Assembly (NCBI RefSeq): GCF_900155545.1
Contig: NZ_LT732525.1
Location: forward strand, 731,260-795,259
DNA: 64,000 bases
Direction of reading: 5' to 3'
Source: Clostridium sp. Marseille-P2415
GTDB taxonomy: Bacteria > Bacillota > Clostridia > Lachnospirales > Lachnospiraceae
Notes under the pieces: generated by a model
The model's database searches: none
What the model was told of the DNA's origin: nothing
The model's input: the letters and a program-made list of their open reading frames with translations, nothing else
Position numbers and translations under genes: made by a program
Part shown: positions 6,165 through 37,568 of the stretch, one piece after another
How positions within the stretch are numbered: the first letter of the stretch is position 1
Layout: each line of letters begins with the position of its first letter

Positions 6165-6473
6165 CTACCCGCGGACCATATATTTTCCTCTGTAATACGA
6201 GATTCCATTGGCTATATTCACCACATTATATCCCTGTGGCTCTAAATTTCTGCAGACCAACATGCTTTGTCCGCCCCTTGAGCAGTAAAATATATAAAAT
6301 TTATCCTTTGGTAAGCTGTTTATCCAGCTGTCCATTTCTTCATATGGCAGATTCACCGCCCCCTTAATATGACTCTTCCTGTAAGAGGCGGGGCTGCGAA
6401 GATCTATGAGCATCACATCACTGTAATTATCTATATAATAGTCGACTTCCCAAATTGGTATGGTCCTGAACAT
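6165..6473 (-). CDS. Single-domain rhodanese
   Basis: 102 aa. One rhodanese homology domain with the active-site loop CSRGGQS (Cys64) after the typical VMLIDLRSPASYRKSHIKGAVNLPY-like framework (split here as VMLIDLR, residues 20-26, and HIKGAVNLPY, 35-44). Such proteins carry sulfane sulfur as a Cys persulfide. No signal or membrane segment. Stands alone with AGGTG before the ATG; 80 nt separate its end from the next operon. Confidence 0.88.
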   Translation of the reverse strand: MFRTIPIWEVDYYIDNYSDVMLIDLRSPASYRKSHIKGAVNLPYEEMDSWINSLPKDKFYIFYCSRGGQSMLVCRNLEPQGYNVVNIANGISYYRGKYMVRG

Positions 6474-16252: not shown

Positions 16253-16267
16253 TGCTTTTATTTAAAA

Positions 16268-16316
16268 ACGGCATCTCCTTAATCCGCTTCGGATTATTGG
16301 GATGCCGTCTTTTTAT
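16268..16316 (+). terminator. Terminator of the M23 peptidase gene
   Basis: Imperfect 19-bp stem (ACGGCATC...GATGCCGT, three mismatches) with a short loop, then CTTTTTA. It marks the border between the GC-richer flank and the AT-rich island. Confidence 0.85.
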
Positions 16317-16382
16317 GCGCTAGTCCTTTTCTCTTCCCCAAAAGCGGGAATGCGAAACCAAGTCTGGCTAACTATTGTTGCC

Positions 16383-16560
16383 TCAGAGATAATAGCCTAA
16401 CGTGATAAAGCAACAACAATAAGTATTTATAAGGGTACCAATTGCTAATGCGGCTCCTCCTGATAGTCCCAAAGCTTTAATTATAAAACCAGCAGCAGTA
16501 CTAGTACCACTAACACTAACAGTATTTTTTGTTCTGCAGCCTCTTTTATAGTTAGTTGGT
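16383..16560 (-). pseudogene. Frameshifted Thr/Ser/Cys-rich peptide gene (bacteriocin-precursor-like)
   Basis: No intact frame, but two frames join at an A6 tract (16525-16530 as T on the plus strand). The upstream frame reads DQLTIKEAAEQK, leader-like; the downstream frame reads NTVSVSGTSTAAGF, then IIKALGLSGGAALAIG, then TLINTYCCCFITLGYYL and a stop at 16383. One added A would fuse them into about 60 residues with a charged leader and a Gly, Ser, Thr and triple-Cys core, the look of a class II bacteriocin or lanthipeptide precursor. An ATG (MTN then stop) lies just upstream in the third frame. No lanthipeptide synthetase is nearby. It directly follows the 111-aa gene of the island. Confidence 0.4.
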
Positions 16561-16578
16561 CATTTTAACCTATATGCA

Positions 16579-16914
16579 CTAATCTTCAATGGCTGTGGGG
16601 ATACATGTATCAGGACGATTGTTTTTACATTCTTCTACTAGTGTATCTATAAGAACGTCAGTAGGCGAGCCTTCCATTTCCTTTTTTACTAGTAGAAAAT
16701 CTTTTGGTAGGTCATGAACTAGATTACATACATTTGTTAAATAATCTGCATCATCCAATCTATCGGTATTATCCGAAAGTAGATAAAGTAAATTGCGATT
16801 TTCTTCAAAAATGATAATTACTATATCAATATTAAAACAATCCTTAGTTTTACTATAAACCGTCCAGCCTTCAACATTGCCTTCAAATAAGATTCTCCGT
16901 AGTGTAACCTCCAT
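16579..16914 (-). CDS. Hypothetical 111-aa cytosolic protein of the island
   Basis: No family recognised. Acidic, no signal or membrane segment; Cys residues near 23, 63 and, at the C-terminus, ECKNNRPDTC. Predicted alpha/beta from the strand NIDIVIIIFEE and helices around it. Start at ATG 16914 with AAAGGAG 9 nt upstream. Last intact gene of the minus-strand island cluster, 70 nt after the rhodanese gene. By position it could be an immunity or accessory factor; this is inference only. Confidence 0.65.
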   Translation of the reverse strand: MEVTLRRILFEGNVEGWTVYSKTKDCFNIDIVIIIFEENRNLLYLLSDNTDRLDDADYLTNVCNLVHDLPKDFLLVKKEMEGSPTDVLIDTLVEECKNNRPDTCIPTAIED

Positions 16915-16984
16915 AATAAACATCTCCTTTTAAAAGAATTATATCATCGTAATCTAGCTATGTAAATAATTTATAGTAAAAAAA

Positions 16985-17458
16985 CTACTCATTTAAGCAT
17001 TGACAAGGTCCAGTTGCTGGAACAAATGAATCTTGAGTATGTTCCAAAAAATCCTCATAACCGAAATTCACATATACCAAACTTTTATATCCGTTTTCGC
17101 TTAAATAATTAAAGACTTGCGACGAACGATTCCCTGAATAGCAGAGTAAGTATATGGTCTTATTTTTCGAGTTGTGTTTAGATAAATAGGCATCAATTTC
17201 ACTTGCATCTACAAAAGGCAGATTTATAGTATTTTTGATATGTGAGGCTTCATAATCCTCACGGTCCCGTAAATCAATAATAAGTTTATTCACTGCACCT
17301 TCTTCAGCTATGTTTAGTAATTCCATGGGATCAACTAATATTCTGTAATCCCTTTTAAAAACATTGCTTATTGTAATGATAAAAAATACAAATATAGTGA
17401 GAACTATAAGCAAAATGAAAATATTTTTATGGTTAAATTTTCTTCTCCATTTATCCAT
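16985..17458 (-). CDS. Membrane-anchored extracytoplasmic rhodanese
   Basis: 157 aa. Basic N-terminus, one transmembrane helix (about 12-32), then a rhodanese domain with LIIDLRDREDYEASHIKNT-type framework (residues 58-76) and active-site loop CYSGNRS (about 109-115). The orientation (Lys/Arg before the helix) puts the domain outside the membrane. A C-terminal GPCQCLNE tail adds a CxC pair. It could act on thiols of the secreted island protein (two Cys) or supply sulfane sulfur. 42 nt downstream of the permease gene; AT-rich codon use like the rest of the island. Confidence 0.82.
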   Translation of the reverse strand: MDKWRRKFNHKNIFILLIVLTIFVFFIITISNVFKRDYRILVDPMELLNIAEEGAVNKLIIDLRDREDYEASHIKNTINLPFVDASEIDAYLSKHNSKNKTIYLLCYSGNRSSQVFNYLSENGYKSLVYVNFGYEDFLEHTQDSFVPATGPCQCLNE

Positions 17459-17500
17459 GTTCCTTTATCCTTTCAAATTTGAGAAATAATTAGAATTTCA

Positions 17501-18277
17501 TTATGCCTTGTACGTTTTTTTGTGAAATAAAATATTTGTAAAGTACGAAATCATAATCACAAGTAAAACAGATACTAAAAATATAATTGTCCAATACCAA
17601 AGTGCAGATATAGTGGAATGTACACCAAGTTCATAGAACACTATATCACTCATTAAAATTCCGGAAATTTTGTTGCGGATAATACCGAAAGGTAAAAAAT
17701 AGTTATCTTCGCCATGTGACGATATAAAAATGCCGATGAAAATTGCCTGTATTATAGCAATAAGTTCTCGTTTAGTATTTAAAAATAATAGTACTGAAGA
17801 AATCAAATAACCGATGCAGGCAATGAAAATAGTGCCAATAAACACAGGAATCATTAAAGCCAAATAGTTTTTAATATCTGCAATTAGCCCGCCCGCTGAT
17901 AGTATTATGATAAATGATAAAATATTCACCAGGAATGCTTTGATAATTTTAAGGAAAATCCTTGTTGAAAGCAACCACTCTATATTAAAGCCAATTATAG
18001 GTTGTTTGAGAAGCAGGTCATTTGTTGTGAACTCGGTATTCAAAACTTCATATGGAATACTTATCCCACTCAAAACAATCCTTGCAATAATATATAGCAG
18101 CATATAGTTACATATTACTATATTTTCAACATTAGAACGATTTAAAAGTTGACTTTTTTGAAATGCAAAAAAAATATATATGCCAACAAACATTAGAAAA
18201 GATATGATTTGCATAATATACCTATTTCTACATTCAAACTTTAAATACCTAATCTGTGATAAAAGGACTTTGTGCAA
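17501..18277 (-). CDS. ABC-2-type transporter permease
   Basis: 258 aa with about six hydrophobic helices (roughly 25-43, 52-73, 105-130, 140-165, 172-195, 228-250), the layout of a half-size ABC-2 permease. No other domain. The frame opens with TTG at 18277 preceded by AGAGGTGG; an ATG 21 codons later is the alternative. It overlaps the ATPase gene by 29 nt, so both form one transporter. In gene clusters of this shape the pair exports a peptide or confers self-immunity (as LanFEG or SkfEF), which is inferred here. Confidence 0.8.
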   Translation of the reverse strand: MHKVLLSQIRYLKFECRNRYIMQIISFLMFVGIYIFFAFQKSQLLNRSNVENIVICNYMLLYIIARIVLSGISIPYEVLNTEFTTNDLLLKQPIIGFNIEWLLSTRIFLKIIKAFLVNILSFIIILSAGGLIADIKNYLALMIPVFIGTIFIACIGYLISSVLLFLNTKRELIAIIQAIFIGIFISSHGEDNYFLPFGIIRNKISGILMSDIVFYELGVHSTISALWYWTIIFLVSVLLVIMISYFTNILFHKKTYKA

Positions 18278-18917
18278 TGTTATTCACCACCTCTGTTATA
18301 TTTTCCTCGCTACAATCGTATCTTGAGTCAAATAGAGAAAAAAACTCCTTTTCATGAGTTGAAATTATTATGGTTTTGTTACTTTTAAGAATTTTTTGTA
18401 TAAATTTATGACTGACATCATCATCCATTCCTAATGTAGGTTCATCTAGAATAATAAACTCTTTAGTTGATAATAGAGCAAGTACTGCTACTATTTTTTG
18501 CTTTGTACCAAGGGAAAGTTTGCTTATAGGCTTCTCGAGAGGTTCAGTTATTTCTAGCAATTCAAGTGTATTCTCTATTTCTGATGTGTTATACTCGTCT
18601 AAACCAATATAATACGTTAAATTTTGAACGATTGAGAAATTTTCATATAATAGCGAATGTCCTTCAGCGTAAAAGATATTTTTTTGAACGATTCTAAATA
18701 AATGCCCATATAATAATAGTTTGAGCGGAAATTTGAAAGAATCGTTACCATAAATCATTATTCCAGAATCAGGAATACAAATTCCGGCAAGCATCCTAAT
18801 AAAGGTGGTCTTTCCAGTTCCGTTCTTTCCAGTAATTACAATATGTTGTCCATCATTTATTTTCATCGATGTTGGTTTAATGATTTTGTTTTTTTTCACA
18901 TTTTCTAAAATAATCAT
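18249..18917 (-). CDS. ABC transporter ATP-binding protein
   Basis: 222 aa. Walker A GKNGTGKTT (about 33-41), signature LSLGTKQK, Walker B EFIILDEPT followed by LGMDD, and H-loop STHEKE. Start ATG 18917 has AGGAGGT 7-8 nt upstream. Partner of the permease encoded next. It is separated from the secreted-protein gene by a 33-nt perfect hairpin, so its expression is probably lower than that of the precursor. Confidence 0.92.
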   Translation of the reverse strand: MIILENVKKNKIIKPTSMKINDGQHIVITGKNGTGKTTFIRMLAGICIPDSGIMIYGNDSFKFPLKLLLYGHLFRIVQKNIFYAEGHSLLYENFSIVQNLTYYIGLDEYNTSEIENTLELLEITEPLEKPISKLSLGTKQKIVAVLALLSTKEFIILDEPTLGMDDDVSHKFIQKILKSNKTIIISTHEKEFFSLFDSRYDCSEENITEVVNNIAQSPFITD

Positions 18918-18948
18918 AAAAACCACCTCCTAAAAAATATTTAAGTTA

Positions 18949-18981
18949 TATCGGTGTTAGATTTGAAATCTAACACCGATA
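18949..18981 (-). terminator. Perfect hairpin between precursor and transporter genes
   Basis: Arms 18949-18964 and 18966-18981 are exact inverse complements (TATCGGTGTTAGATTT), giving a 14-15 bp stem with a tiny loop. No U-tract follows on the minus strand (ataacttaaat), so it may be a partial terminator or an RNA-stabilising 3' end for the 163-aa gene. Confidence 0.6.
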
Positions 18982-18991
18982 CTATTCAGCT

Positions 18992-19483
18992 TTAACCTGC
19001 GATAGCTTTGAGGAACAAGGTCCAAGCAGCTAAATCATCTGCTGGGCCAGCAAAGATATTAAGTGCTGCCAAAATTACAAGTATTCCAGTTCCTGCTATC
19101 AATAACCCATGAATGAAACCGCTATTATTTTGTACAGAAGGATTATATTGACTAATTCGCTCCTGCACTTTTGAATTATCCATAGCTTCTTTCATTAGCC
19201 ACTCAGGAACCTTGCTTCTGTCTGAGTTCTTCTTGTCGCATACTTGGAGGTTGTCTAGACGCATACAATAGATATGCGTACTTTTCTTGTAGAAATGAAC
19301 GTGGTATACGTCACCGTTAAAATGCGGTGAATCAAGGCGGATACTATATGCAGTATTTTTTCCATCGCCATAGATCCATTGATTGCTGGCAGCAGACGCA
19401 GGGATTTCTAATATGAAAACGAGCGTCAGAATAAGTAAAAGACTTGTAACTAGATTTTGGATTTTTGTACTTGTTTTTATCAT
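18992..19483 (-). CDS. Secreted 163-aa protein with hydrophobic C-terminal segment (bacteriocin-precursor-like)
   Basis: No family recognised. Signal peptide (about 1-31, ending ASAA), a polar middle (about 32-118) with two Cys (IYCMRL and LQVCDKK) that could form a disulfide, and a C-terminal stretch of about 45 residues starting NNSGFIHGLLIAG, hydrophobic and Gly/Ala-rich and ending TLFLKAIAG. The plan resembles SdpC of B. subtilis, whose toxin is cut from the C-terminal part of a secreted pro-protein; no sequence similarity is claimed. AAGGAGG precedes the ATG by 7 nt, a strong ribosome site. First gene of the island cluster. Confidence 0.75.
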   Translation of the reverse strand: MIKTSTKIQNLVTSLLLILTLVFILEIPASAASNQWIYGDGKNTAYSIRLDSPHFNGDVYHVHFYKKSTHIYCMRLDNLQVCDKKNSDRSKVPEWLMKEAMDNSKVQERISQYNPSVQNNSGFIHGLLIAGTGILVILAALNIFAGPADDLAAWTLFLKAIAG

Positions 19484-19970
19484 ATGATTACCTCCTTTAC
19501 ATATCGGTAGTGTTAAGGTTTCTACTACTTAAATCGGCTTACCCCAGTAAAACAATGGTTCCGGATTTCATTTACCCCGATTAGACTGTAACTTCCCTAT
19601 TTCTTCCTCTGAGTGACTAGGTATTTTTGTATTTTGCTTTTCAATCCATGTCAAACCAGGATTGAAGGCTCGTTTATTTTATGTTTTAAAGGGACAGGGA
19701 TTAATAAAGCATAAATATAATGGCACAAGAGGATAGAATGGGGTCACTTTTTATACACTACCTACATATTACATACTACTTTTTCCATTCATTATATGCC
19801 TACGTACTTTTTTGAACCATATAATCACCTCCTTGAATGAGGTCAGCAGCCATGAGAAAAACTCAAAAGGCGCAGTAGTAATGAATTTTACGAAAGCTGA
19901 TGACTTCTCACTCCAAAATTTATAGAGACAACCAGCTAAAAAGGGTATAATTTGCCGAGAAAATACGCCA
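19484..19970. other. AT-rich gene-free stretch upstream of the island cluster
   Basis: No supportable gene. It holds the promoter region of the 163-aa gene, with an inverted pair AATCGG...CCGATT about 50 nt apart (near 19532-19583), and on the minus strand an abortive start: AAGGAGGTGATTAT then ATG (near 19821) with only MVQKST before a stop, likely the remnant of a lost gene. Confidence 0.5.
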
Positions 19971-19974
19971 AAAG

Positions 19975-20360
19975 GAGCTGGTCATATCCACCAAAAGGAA
20001 CTTTTACAAGACATCAGTCTGCTCACATCATAATCCAAAGCAAAGTTTTACGATAAATTATTTTTGCATTTGTATCTAATGGTGCCTGAGATCAATGCAT
20101 ACCAAAACCGGAAGAATGCAAAAAGGGAATTTACCAGTTATCACAGACCACCTTAGATAATGCACTTGATACATATTTAGGCGGCTTGCAATCAGATATC
20201 GAAGCTGTAAAAAATGGCATTGATTAGAAATACAATAATGGCCTCACTTCAGGAAGCGTCAATAAGATCAAGTTTACCAAGCGTAACATGTATGGTCGGA
20301 ACAACTTTCAATTGCTACGAGCCAAGCCTCTTTTGAATGATTGTTTTAAAGATGTTAGGG
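19975..20360 (+). pseudogene. ISL3-type transposase remnant
   Basis: Plus-strand translation recalls the two ends of a DDE transposase of the ISL3 (IS204/IS1001/IS1096) type: KELLQDISLL near 20000 (start codon lost), and from about 20150 LDTYLGGLQSDIEAVKNGID, an in-frame TAG (20225-20227), then KYNNGLTSGSVNKIKFTKRN and MYGRNNFQLLRAKPLLN. The middle, including most of the catalytic part, is deleted. Not functional. Marks past mobile-element activity at the edge of the AT-rich island. Confidence 0.7.
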
Positions 20361-20720
20361 TATTTTATTATTGGAAACATGCCTTTTGTTTAATCACCTT
20401 TTCATAATATCTCATAAATAACAAGCAACATGTTGAGCCTAAAGTAAATACTGTCTCACTTTTTATTTTATAGTCTCTCAATATTCCATCATCTCCTCCA
20501 ATTAATATAGGCTGCAAACTTCATATTTAACTCATGCTTATTTAACGTTTTTTATCTCTCCCTTAATCTGATATGCAATATGTAAATATTCTGTTTTAAA
20601 GAGATCGTTCGCCTTTAATGTATACCAATATTACGCTCATTGCAATCCATGTTCCAAAATTATACACGTTAAGTGCCAAAATTTGCACATTTCCAACTAA
20701 ATAAGTATTAACCTGATAAA
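20361..20720. other. AT-rich intergenic stretch
   Basis: No open frame with a ribosome site and no repeat could be supported between the transposase remnant and the agmatine operon terminators. Confidence 0.5.
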
Positions 20721-20721
20721 A

Positions 20722-20799
20722 AAAAAATAGCGTTAGGCCATTCAGCCTAAAAAGAGCCGCTGCTCTATAGGTAAAAATTCACCTATAGAGCAGCGGCTC
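20722..20799 (-). terminator. Tandem terminators of the agmatine operon
   Basis: Minus strand: a perfect 19-bp stem (20781-20799 with 20754-20772, 8-nt loop) followed by TTTTT, then a second hairpin TTAGGC/GCCTAA followed by CGCTA and ten T residues. They close the operon that ends with aguA at 20898 and shield the island from read-through. Confidence 0.9.
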
Positions 20800-20897
20800 C
20801 CATTACTCAATATGACGACAGATGCAGGCTATAAAAGCGAGGAGACACACTGGCTCCCCCCTTCTTATACATTTGAAGAGATAACGTGTTTATCTCA

Positions 20898-34974: not shown

Positions 34975-35745
34975 TTATGGAAGAGCTAAACAAGGCTTTT
35001 TCGCTAAATACAAAGCAATCGTATCGTTAAGTATTATTTTATTTCCCGCATTTATAATAGCTTCACGAACTCCGTTATAGAAGTTTGATTTATATGGTTC
35101 TTGTAATGTAATATGTTCTACCTGGGTACTGGCTAAGTATTCAATATACTCCTCCGCGGTATACACTCTTGTCCTTTTCCAATCACGGTAATTGTAATCA
35201 ACAAAACCGTAATTGACAACATTATCGTAATTCAGACTGCATGTATATTTTGTTTCAACATGGAAATGTTCATCATATACTTTTTGTATTGCATCATACA
35301 ATGCTCTATTCGATGTTTTTTCATCTGTAAGCGTCATAAACATCGCTAATGTTCCTCCGCTATTAAGAAGATTATACACCTTCGGAAAACAGATTTTTTC
35401 CGGTATCCACTGTATCGTTGCCGCTGAGAAAACCAAGTCGAATTTTTGATTGCCAAAGTCATGGATTTCAAAGTCGTCGTTTACTATATTGAAATTAATA
35501 TAAGAACCGAATTTCTTCTTTGTAAAATCCACAAAATGTTCACCGAGTTCAATTGCTGAATAATTGCAGCCGGTTTTTAGAAAAGGCTCGGTGGCCTGCC
35601 CCGTTCCAGGGCCAATCTCAAGTACTGATTTACTTGCATCAATTTCTGCATAATTAATCACATCAGCAAAAAGTTCATCACAATAGCGTGATCTCCATTT
35701 ATCAAACTTCTCTGGAATTGTATCAAATGTTTTTCGAAAATCCAT
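34975..35745 (-). CDS. Class I SAM-dependent methyltransferase
   Basis: 256 aa. SAM motif VLEIGPGTGQATEPF (about 41-55), then NIVNDDFE and FDLVFSAATIQWIPEK, as in the trans-aconitate/ubiquinone-type small-molecule methyltransferases. Substrate unknown. ATG 35745 follows GGAGGT by 7 nt. AT-rich compared with the amino-acid genes upstream; first of four accessory genes in a row. Confidence 0.88.
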   Translation of the reverse strand: MDFRKTFDTIPEKFDKWRSRYCDELFADVINYAEIDASKSVLEIGPGTGQATEPFLKTGCNYSAIELGEHFVDFTKKKFGSYINFNIVNDDFEIHDFGNQKFDLVFSAATIQWIPEKICFPKVYNLLNSGGTLAMFMTLTDEKTSNRALYDAIQKVYDEHFHVETKYTCSLNYDNVVNYGFVDYNYRDWKRTRVYTAEEYIEYLASTQVEHITLQEPYKSNFYNGVREAIINAGNKIILNDTIALYLAKKPCLALP

Positions 35746-35794
35746 ACCATTCACCTCCACATAATATAAAAAATCTTATCTAAAATAGAATTTA

Positions 35795-36235
35795 TCAGGA
35801 TAACCTCATGTATAAGATCAGATAGGGATTTCCTTGTTCATCTGTATCAGACCGTTTATAAACATGAAATCCCATATGTTCGTAAAACCCTATTGCTTGT
35901 GGGTTTTGTTCATTTACACCTAATTCATTTACATTATATTTTTCTATTCCGTATTGAAGAAGTTCCTTTCCGACTCCTCTGCCCTGCTCATCTGGGGAAA
36001 CAAAAAGCATTTCTAGCTTTTGTTCCTCAATTCCCATAAATGCGATGGGTTCGTCATTATTTGTTGCAATTATCAAGTGTGCAACACCATTTAAAGCATT
36101 TGGAACATATTCTGCAATCTTCTCAATTTCATCATCTGTTAAAAACATATGAGTAGCTTTTACTGACTTTTTCCAGACCTTAAACAACTTATCTATTAGT
36201 ATTTTGTCTCTATTTTCTGCATTAACAATATTCAT
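35795..36235 (-). CDS. GNAT family N-acetyltransferase
   Basis: 146 aa. Acetyl-CoA pyrophosphate loop QGRGVGKELLQYG (about 103-115) and C-terminal GFYEHMGFHVYKRSDTDEQG typical of YjaB/PhnO-like GNATs. Substrate unknown. Weak ribosome site (AAAGGCGGT). Lies 49 nt before the methyltransferase gene. Confidence 0.88.
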   Translation of the reverse strand: MNIVNAENRDKILIDKLFKVWKKSVKATHMFLTDDEIEKIAEYVPNALNGVAHLIIATNNDEPIAFMGIEEQKLEMLFVSPDEQGRGVGKELLQYGIEKYNVNELGVNEQNPQAIGFYEHMGFHVYKRSDTDEQGNPYLILYMRLS

Positions 36236-36274
36236 GATATACCGCCTTTGATTTTTCGATGTCTAATTTATTTT

Positions 36275-36739
36275 CTACTGCAAACCAAACTCAGATTTCA
36301 GATTTTCAAATCTAACTTTTTCATGCTCTGCCACATCTAATAGAGGGTTATATAAACAGTGTTGCATAACATCCGCATCGATTAATACCTCATCAAAAGA
36401 AGAATGTCTTACACCTTTCCTGCTATGGTTATAAATTGCACTGCAAATCATATCAATTTCCTTACTGTCAAAAATACATAGAGAGTTTAAAATTTCCCTT
36501 GCCATGAGAGAACCTTTATGGGCATGATCTTTTGTATCCAAGGTTGAATAGGAATAAATATCATGAAGCATACCCGCTATTGTTGCTAACTCCACATTTT
36601 CACTTCTTTTTATGGCTATCATTGCACAAGCTTGTGAAACACCATACAAATGCAAATAACCACATCTTCTTTCTGCAGGATCTGACATATTCAAAAGTAC
36701 GATGTCCACATATTCTCTCACTTTTTCAATTCTATTCAT
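36275..36739 (-). CDS. HD-domain protein
   Basis: 154 aa. Metal-dependent phosphohydrolase HD motif LHDIYSY (about 58-64) with upstream His and downstream NHSRKG and DADVMQ, as in uncharacterised small HD proteins acting on nucleotides or phosphorylated metabolites. AAGGAG precedes the ATG. Accessory, AT-rich. Confidence 0.82.
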   Translation of the reverse strand: MNRIEKVREYVDIVLLNMSDPAERRCGYLHLYGVSQACAMIAIKRSENVELATIAGMLHDIYSYSTLDTKDHAHKGSLMAREILNSLCIFDSKEIDMICSAIYNHSRKGVRHSSFDEVLIDADVMQHCLYNPLLDVAEHEKVRFENLKSEFGLQ

Positions 36740-36836
36740 GTTCAGCGCTCCTTAGCCTAATACAAATAATCTTAATAAATAGAATACTACTGATCTTACT
36801 AACTAACAATAAAAATTTTTAATATTCAACAATGCG

Positions 36837-36898
36837 TTAAATTATACATAAAAAACTACTAACTATATAGCTAGTAGTTTTTTATGTATAATTTAACT
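36837..36898. terminator. Long perfect inverted repeat, bidirectional terminator
   Basis: 26-nt arms (36837-36862 and 36873-36898) complement each other exactly with a 10-nt loop; A- and T-runs inside the stem serve either direction. It separates the acetyltransferase gene from the HD gene. Confidence 0.75.
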
Positions 36899-36935
36899 TT
36901 ATAGGCTTCGTATTACGCTCAAAATGGGAAAATTT

Positions 36936-37568
36936 TTAAATATATAGCTTATTAACTTCTCCATTCATAATATAGGGTAAAAATTGCTGTATCTTATTAA
37001 AAGGCCAATTCCACCATTGTATCTGCTGTAATTTATTAATTGTTTCTTCATTAAAACGCCTTTTGACTTCTTTTGCAGGAATACCGCCAACAACTGTATA
37101 TGGAGGGACATCCTTTGTTACGACTGCTCTCGTCCCTATGATTGCACCGTCACCAATATGAACGCCAGATAATATAACTGCTTCATATCCTATCCAAACA
37201 TCATTACCAATTACAATATCACCTTTATTATCCCATGCTGATTTAACATGTATTTTATCTAAATCCCATTCTTCAAAGAATATTGGAAACGGATAGGTTG
37301 AAAGTGATTTAAGGGTGTGATTGGCACTGGTAAACAGGAACTTTGCACCACAGGCTATGGAACAAAACTTGCCAATAATCAATTTGTCATTATTAACAGG
37401 ATAGTGATATAGTACATTATTCTTCTCAAAATGCGCAGGGTCCGAAACAAAATCATTATACATAGTATAATCGCCAACTATAATATTGGGATTTGTAATT
37501 ATATCTTTTAAATATACTGTTTCAAAGTCATTGGTCCGCGGATATACTTTTTTATCTGGAATAGTCAT
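36936..37568 (-). CDS. Xenobiotic O-acetyltransferase, Vat/CatB-like (hexapeptide repeat)
   Basis: 210 aa left-handed beta-helix acetyltransferase. Hallmarks of the XAT group: LYHYPVNNDKLIIGKFCSI, catalytic His in TSANHTLKSLSTYPF, GDIVIGNDVWIGYEAVILSG, VGGIPAKEVKRRF and WWNWP. This pattern is very close to streptogramin A acetyltransferases (Vat) and CatB chloramphenicol acetyltransferases. The drug substrate, if any, cannot be read from sequence. ATG follows AGGAGGATTTT. Sits in the accessory run, so acquired resistance is plausible. Confidence 0.85.
   Translation of the reverse strand: MTIPDKKVYPRTNDFETVYLKDIITNPNIIVGDYTMYNDFVSDPAHFEKNNVLYHYPVNNDKLIIGKFCSIACGAKFLFTSANHTLKSLSTYPFPIFFEEWDLDKIHVKSAWDNKGDIVIGNDVWIGYEAVILSGVHIGDGAIIGTRAVVTKDVPPYTVVGGIPAKEVKRRFNEETINKLQQIQWWNWPFNKIQQFLPYIMNGEVNKLYI

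Follow-up and report, generated by a model that had tools for sequence, protein, structure and literature searches.

What is the function of an AT-rich island of five genes in the genome of Clostridium sp. Marseille-P2415? The island lies in a stretch of 64,000 nucleotides that was analysed as a whole (the window). It encodes a secreted protein of 163 amino acids (aa), the ATPase and the permease of an ATP-binding cassette (ABC) transporter, a membrane-anchored rhodanese and a protein of 111 aa. An earlier reading of the letters alone (the sequence-only reading) had proposed a bacteriocin-like system, and its five minus-strand open reading frames (ORFs) were all confirmed. We give a probability of about 0.6 to the view that a bacteriocin-like toxin-immunity cassette was acquired here by horizontal transfer: the two-helix tail of the secreted protein would enter target membranes, the ABC pair and the 111-aa protein would confer immunity and the rhodanese would act on a pair of cysteines.

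A recurrent five-gene cassette

The same five genes, in the same order and on the same strand, occur in Lacrimispora amygdalina (G020, loci L003 and L009) and in a metagenome-assembled genome (MAG) of the Clostridiaceae (G1044, locus L010), in genomic settings unlike that of the window. They are thus together at all three loci with this type of toxin, a co-occurrence that the sequence-only reading had called for, and the recurrence of their order in two other genomes makes the cassette more than a chance assembly. Identities to the window in L. amygdalina and the MAG, respectively, are 40 and 39% for the toxin, 37 and 36% for the ATPase, 26 and 26% for the permease, 38 and 36% for the rhodanese and 20 and 20% for the fifth protein. 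BLASTP did not tie the window's fifth protein to its L. amygdalina counterpart (E 0.76). Against a profile of the other two it scores 9.2 bits, above all 1000 of its own shuffles (best 7.3), and its global z-scores are 4.4 and 2.8; the fifth proteins of the three cassettes are therefore probably homologous.

The distribution of the cassette is sparse. In samples that overlap, its toxin was found in 2 of 99 relatives (the window's own genome and L. amygdalina); in the own genome among 397 of the family, beside five weak matches (E 3.2e-5 to 0.0063); in the own genome alone among 295 of the order; and, among 391 of the class, in the own genome, the MAG and a further genome, G899, beside three weak matches (G848, G981 and G998). 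In the family of the MAG it is confined to the MAG itself (1 of 32). The weak matches were taken as chance, since three of the five in the family contain internal stops and others lie in much longer frames or cover less than half of the profile; one of them, L014, was inspected.

A phage home was rejected, as the cassette toxin had no match in phages and, of three scans of viral contigs, two were empty and one gave a single relative that lacks the tail (L024). A plasmid home for the cassette toxins was also rejected, no plasmid matching them; the one plasmid match of the rhodanese lies in a TusA-type protein. Nine proteins compared with PHROGs had just weak matches, to families of unknown function (best E 0.0069).

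The insertion site

The island extends from 16253 to 20897, between a gene for an M23 peptidase and an agmatine deiminase-like gene, and its GC content is 33.2%, compared with 45.0% for the remainder of the window. Its AT-richness had been recognised by the sequence-only reading, whose span of 16383..19483 does contain the five genes. That span was nevertheless too small for the real island, which is flanked by two convergent genes, and its start at 16383 takes in about 200 bp with no intact gene.

We surveyed the site as the position of the M23 gene relative to the deiminase-like gene in 25 genomes of the window's genus. The M23 gene is present in all 25, and the deiminase-like orthologues are 88-92% identical; five of the genomes have only a deiminase paralogue of about 48% identity. 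The site is empty, with the flanking genes less than 100 bp apart, in eight genomes (G001, G005, G006, G007, G008, G010, G013 and G014). The two genes are separated by 4.65 kb in the window's own genome, by 2.0 and 1.2 kb carrying other genes in G012 and G021, and by about 9 kb in eight more, of which G015 and G023 have a fragmented deiminase gene; G004 has the two genes on separate contigs. The intergenic sequences of the empty site were read for five genomes, and no convincing direct repeats were found at the ends of the island. The 4.65-kb AT-rich stretch is an insertion, probably one acquired horizontally.

The cargo of this site differs by species (L082-L084; G002, G012 and G021): by eye, it resembles a sugar-transport operon in G002, the one inspected among the genomes with about 9 kb, and, in the others, a MATE-like transporter with a regulator and a TetR-like regulator. 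A second AT-rich stretch of the window, at 34975-37568 (31-35% GC), is possibly another insertion; its ORFs appear by eye to be methyltransferase-, acetyltransferase-, HD- and acyltransferase-like.

The secreted protein and its relatives

The 163-aa protein carries a signal peptide, as do all three cassette precursors, then a domain that we named HVH after its H-x-H motif and a hydrophobic tail, whose hydropathy reaches 2.43 at residues 127-145. The structure model places strands between residues 35 and 75 and two helices, one at 115-140 and one at 147-162. Up to E=1, neither Pfam nor NCBIfam had a match for the 163-aa protein, the fifth protein (in its 111- or 114-aa form) or the permease, so that the first two belong to no known family as searched, as had been supposed; the precursor and the permease also have no relative among solved structures up to E=1.

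The class survey with the three cassette toxins led to a protein of G899 (E 3.3e-10). It has 159 aa and the same plan, and its tail contains D-D-x-x-A-W, as in the window. Its locus (L017, 8418-11200), between transposase-like genes, holds the HVH toxin, a 151-aa ORF of the type ending in YLSQD, an ABC ATPase and broken permease frames, and it is possibly an intermediate between plasmid-borne gene pairs and the five-gene cassette. As a query, the G899 protein retrieved nine plasmid records, of which one from Sphingomonas (E 0.07) was taken as chance; six plasmid loci were opened. Among the nine records are pPL10 and pPL7065 of Bacillus pumilus, which we take to be killing plasmids, reported as such since the 1970s. 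Their HVH proteins are annotated as hypothetical in the records seen. Another plasmid, pGR8, resembles pPL7065 according to one report (PMC4437294).

In G1360 (L027), an RHS protein ends in the HVH domain and a tail, which follow closely on its RHS core. The second half of this C-terminal part matches the Pfam model Tox-WTIP at 3.3e-17, with the HVH domain overlapping it and lying just before. In their survey of 2012, Zhang and colleagues predicted that W-TIP toxins form a membrane pore and described them as being, at that time, confined to proteobacteria (PMC3482391). The match at L027, 817-1275, is in a genome of the window's own phylum. A tblastn search of the RHS C-terminus against plasmids gave no match.

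The family was tested with profile hidden Markov models (HMMs), signal peptides removed, on 732 six-frame stretches that included the family's own frames. An HMM of the outer relatives gives E values of 5.1e-7 for the window protein, 1.1e-7 for the RHS C-terminus, and 8.9e-7 and 1.8e-6 for the toxins of the other two cassettes; each of the 22 matches listed is a family member, and none is an unrelated frame. The reverse HMM, built from the cassettes, matches G899 at 1.4e-10, L024 at 1.1e-8 and a Bacillus badius protein at 2.3e-6. Profile-profile comparison, here with signal peptides included, gave a probability of 97.9%. Four columns are invariant over ten HVH proteins (P53, H61, H63 and P93), and the tails diverge. 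Nothing in Pfam matched HVH proteins above the curated cut-off save Tox-WTIP on the RHS protein, and NCBIfam, tried with the three cassette toxins, held no family. DUF6367 matched L024 at E 0.0012, below the cut-off, and may be a lead. HVH proteins, the window's included with its signal peptide, H61-x-H63 domain and hydrophobic tail, thus appear to be a secreted toxin family with no model in Pfam or NCBIfam as searched. The sequence-only reading would have been contradicted by homologues in a known structural or enzyme family; homologues do exist, and they point to a toxin. Together with the signal peptide and the tail, they support a secreted, toxin-like protein.

The sequence-only reading had further proposed that the N-terminal part is a pro-region and that the C-terminus is released, and an SDP-like system of this kind is the alternative closest in design: the HVH domain would be a pro-domain from which an unlinked protease frees about 45 hydrophobic residues as the active peptide. 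According to PMC6818787, SdpC and YitM both have a signal peptide, a soluble and related N-terminal part, a divergent hydrophobic C-terminus and dedicated immunity. The likeness of design therefore holds, and HVH-family tails diverge too. The processing does not follow: no protease was found among the five genes with Pfam and NCBIfam, and SdpB (TIGR04033) was found in none of four genomes, with a positive control in B. subtilis (SdpA was not searched for), so that a free 45-residue peptide is left unsupported for want of an SdpB-type processing gene. The HVH domain and the tail, moreover, travel as one unit and are joined even when they form the C-terminus of the RHS relative, which argues against a mere pro-region. 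We consider peptide release unlikely, and favour a toxin that acts with both its parts.

Candidate immunity functions

In all 13 loci analysed that are neither cassettes nor RHS loci, a small ORF of one family, mostly ending in YLSQD or YLSQE, adjoins the HVH gene or its remnant; an HMM built from seven of the 13 recovers every one at E 3e-12 or better. In the pPL plasmids this partner has 144-145 aa and ends in YLSQD. One genus has a toxin match in 5 of 44 genomes: two loci are intact pairs (L028 and L029), a third (L026) keeps a tail-only frame with its partner, and in the other two (L030 and L031) the toxin is broken and the partner open. L023 and L024 likewise have open partners, next to HVH proteins that lack the hydrophobic tail. 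Immunity genes tend to outlast the loss of their toxin, and since the partner is kept while the toxin is lost, it is a candidate immunity protein. At L031 (G1468; 1-989 and 1824-2228), the open immunity-type ORF has in its vicinity a gene for what appears, by eye, to be an LXG polymorphic toxin.

The same loci bear on the idea that the secreted protein is a signal or a sensor ligand, with an ABC pair that has another substrate to export or detoxify. Sensing modules do contain ABC pairs and small secreted proteins, but inspection by eye of the island revealed no intact ORF for a regulator, a kinase or a receptor, the partner of the relatives survives the loss of the toxin, and one relative is the C-terminus of an RHS toxin. 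This makes a signalling role very improbable.

In the window, the role of the YLSQD/E ORF, a frequent but not a required companion in the outer group, is taken by the 111-aa protein. This protein is acidic (net charge -12) and has no strongly hydrophobic stretch; its fold is predicted as beta-beta-beta-beta-alpha-beta-alpha, with a mean predicted local distance difference test score (pLDDT) of 81.8 for the best of five models and 60-68 for the other four.

As for the ABC pair, the sequence-only reading had left export and immunity side by side. Many bacteriocins are served by ABC exporters, and the pair might export the 163-aa protein rather than protect the producer. All three cassette precursors have a signal peptide of their own, however, and five Bacillus/Priestia plasmid loci (L018, L019, L021, L022 and L023) contain no frame that matches the ATPase; among the 14 outer loci, several of them only about 3 kb long, such a frame occurs in G899 alone. 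For these two reasons we read the pair as a putative immunity pump, and hold a role in export to be distinctly unlikely.

The rhodanese and the cysteine pair

The fourth protein matches PF00581 at 1.9e-15 and has the active-site loop CYSGNR, in which C106 is invariant in all three cassettes; so is a C-terminal C152-x-C154. The domain should face outward by the positive-inside rule, as a basic stretch precedes the one N-terminal helix. The toxins that accompany it carry a pair of cysteines in the mature domain (C73 and C82 in the window) in three cases of three, compared with none of the 11 other tabulated relatives: nine of these have no cysteine after the signal peptide, and a single one is present in the B. 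badius protein and in the RHS C-terminus, the latter with a further one in its RHS linker. A rhodanese frame was found at none of the 14 outer loci (E 1e-3). The link between rhodanese and thiols that was first suggested by sequence is strengthened by these counts.

A rhodanese of this kind might still be a hitch-hiker that answers sulfur or cyanide stress, or a general redox protein of the envelope; single-domain rhodaneses are common, and the loop CYSG[NKR]R resembles an ordinary active site. It is present in three cassettes of three with its CxC tail conserved, though, and among 140 genomes of the family a match that reaches this tail (E 1e-12 or better) occurs in the window's own only; in G040 the match stops before it. 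Mere hitch-hiking thus seems improbable, and the pattern fits a dedicated partnership of rhodanese and toxin. Among the papers listed by literature searches for rhodaneses with bacteriocins and for Lacrimispora with bacteriocin, none was recognisably on this system.

A second rhodanese-like ORF of 102 aa, which stands alone, was noticed by eye in the window (6165-6473, minus strand); it has no membrane anchor.

Gene organisation

The features of the island are collected in Table 1. The strong ribosome-binding site attributed to the toxin gene is indeed a consensus site, AAAGGAGG. The permease is a candidate ABC-2 protein by its position and hydrophobicity, and an upstream ATG of the fifth gene would yield 114 aa. 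The inverted repeat is likely an attenuator or mRNA stabiliser, and the toxin could then be produced in excess of the downstream genes. The promoter-like site before the fifth gene, with its extended -10, is the best of the island, which has no excess of such sites (18, against 22.9 in shuffles); a promoter there is suggested at most.

Table 1 Features of the island in window coordinates, or in residues of the 163-aa protein
Feature	Position	Strand	Evidence
Secreted toxin candidate, 163 aa	18992..19483	-	ORF and sequence inspection
Signal peptide of the 163-aa protein	about residues 1-32		by inspection
HVH domain, with H61-x-H63, C73 and C82	about residues 35-110		
Two-helix hydrophobic tail	residues 115-162		
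Perfect inverted repeat of 16 bp, toxin-ATPase intergenic region	18949..18981	-	-23.4 kcal/mol, z -6.07
ATPase of the ABC pair, putative immunity pump, 222 aa counted from the inner ATG	18249..18917 (or to 18926)	-	Pfam ABC_tran 7.7e-21
Membrane permease, 258 aa, TTG start, overlaps ATPase gene	17501..18277	-	
Membrane-anchored rhodanese, 157 aa, predicted outward-facing	16985..17458	-	Pfam Rhodanese 1.9e-15
Promoter-like site TTTACA-17-TATAAT, TG before -10, directly upstream of 111-aa gene	16938..16966	-	11/12 positions
Acidic soluble 111-aa protein, candidate cytoplasmic immunity protein	16579..16914	-	

Directly downstream of the fifth gene, a start-less open frame (16386-16556, minus strand), Gly/Ala-rich and with C-C-C clustered towards its end, appears to be what is left of a gene for a small hydrophobic peptide. 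The non-coding DNA upstream of the toxin gene contains a strong terminator-like hairpin of 20 pairs (20754-20799).

Proposed mode of action

In the toxin-immunity cassette that we propose, the 163-aa protein would leave the cell by the general secretory (Sec) route and, once its signal peptide is removed, consist of a small beta domain with the H-x-H motif and the hydrophobic two-helix tail. The tail would insert into the membrane of competitors and depolarise it, and the HVH domain would help to keep the protein soluble or to bind the target. The ABC pair would exclude the toxin from the membrane of the producer, with additional immunity from the 111-aa protein in the cytoplasm. Outside, the rhodanese with its CxC tail would form, break or sulfurate the C73/C82 pair.

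A broader proposal, which we make tentatively and hold to be less probable than not, is that of an unrecognised modular class of toxins, in which a conserved HVH carrier domain with swappable membrane-inserting tails would be shared by Bacillus plasmids, RHS toxins and Clostridia. In the Clostridial branch, a dedicated outward-facing rhodanese with its CxC tail would mature the cysteine pair outside the cell as a disulfide, persulfide or polysulfide.

Several observations weigh against the cassette as we read it. Cassettes of this exact type number three, and the association of cysteines and rhodanese in these three may reflect one ancestry. The model of the precursor is weak, with a mean pLDDT of 64.9 (block means are 81-86 for residues 61-100). 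The cassette HMM reaches pPL10 at E 0.09 only, the link running via G899, L024 and B. badius, and the literature search did not confirm the killing role of pPL10 and pPL7065. The tail of the RHS protein is less hydrophobic than that of the window by the same measure (0.96 versus 2.43), and the latter has no match to the Tox-WTIP model with its RxxR and Wx[ST]IP motifs. The fifth protein could not be linked to the immunity family of the plasmids, its score being equalled by 4 of 150 column shuffles, and the partner-ORF HMM has no match in the two other cassette loci (L003 and L010), nor in the RHS locus. Finally, a membrane toxin is not usually countered by soluble proteins, as the candidate immunity proteins appear to be; such a protein would need to act from inside.

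Comparison with known systems and significance

With SdpC and YitM the window protein shares, by sequence and model, a secreted precursor with a hydrophobic C-terminal segment. It has no match to an SdpC-type curated model in Pfam or NCBIfam up to E=1, and its immunity seems to differ, consisting of an ABC pair and a soluble protein. SKF of Bacillus subtilis resembles the cassette in that its peptide gene is accompanied by an ABC pair and by a thiol-related enzyme. No radical SAM or CPBP family matched any of the five proteins in Pfam and NCBIfam, and an SKF-type sactipeptide was rejected for lack of a radical SAM maturase. Tox-WTIP (PF15654) is linked to the window through the RHS relative, which matches the model, and the hydrophobic tail is alike; the window protein differs in having a signal peptide, no RHS carrier and no W-TIP motif. 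The pPL10 and pPL7065 proteins are built as in the window, with signal peptide, HVH domain and hydrophobic tail, but they have no cysteine, and the plasmids no rhodanese or ABC ATPase frame.

For the killing activity presumed of pPL10 and pPL7065, the family offers a pair of candidate genes. One shared domain would join secreted bacteriocin-like proteins with an RHS-delivered predicted pore former. If the rhodanese does act on the toxin, sulfurtransferase chemistry would serve in the maturation of a toxin or in self-protection from it, a use that we did not find in the literature searched.

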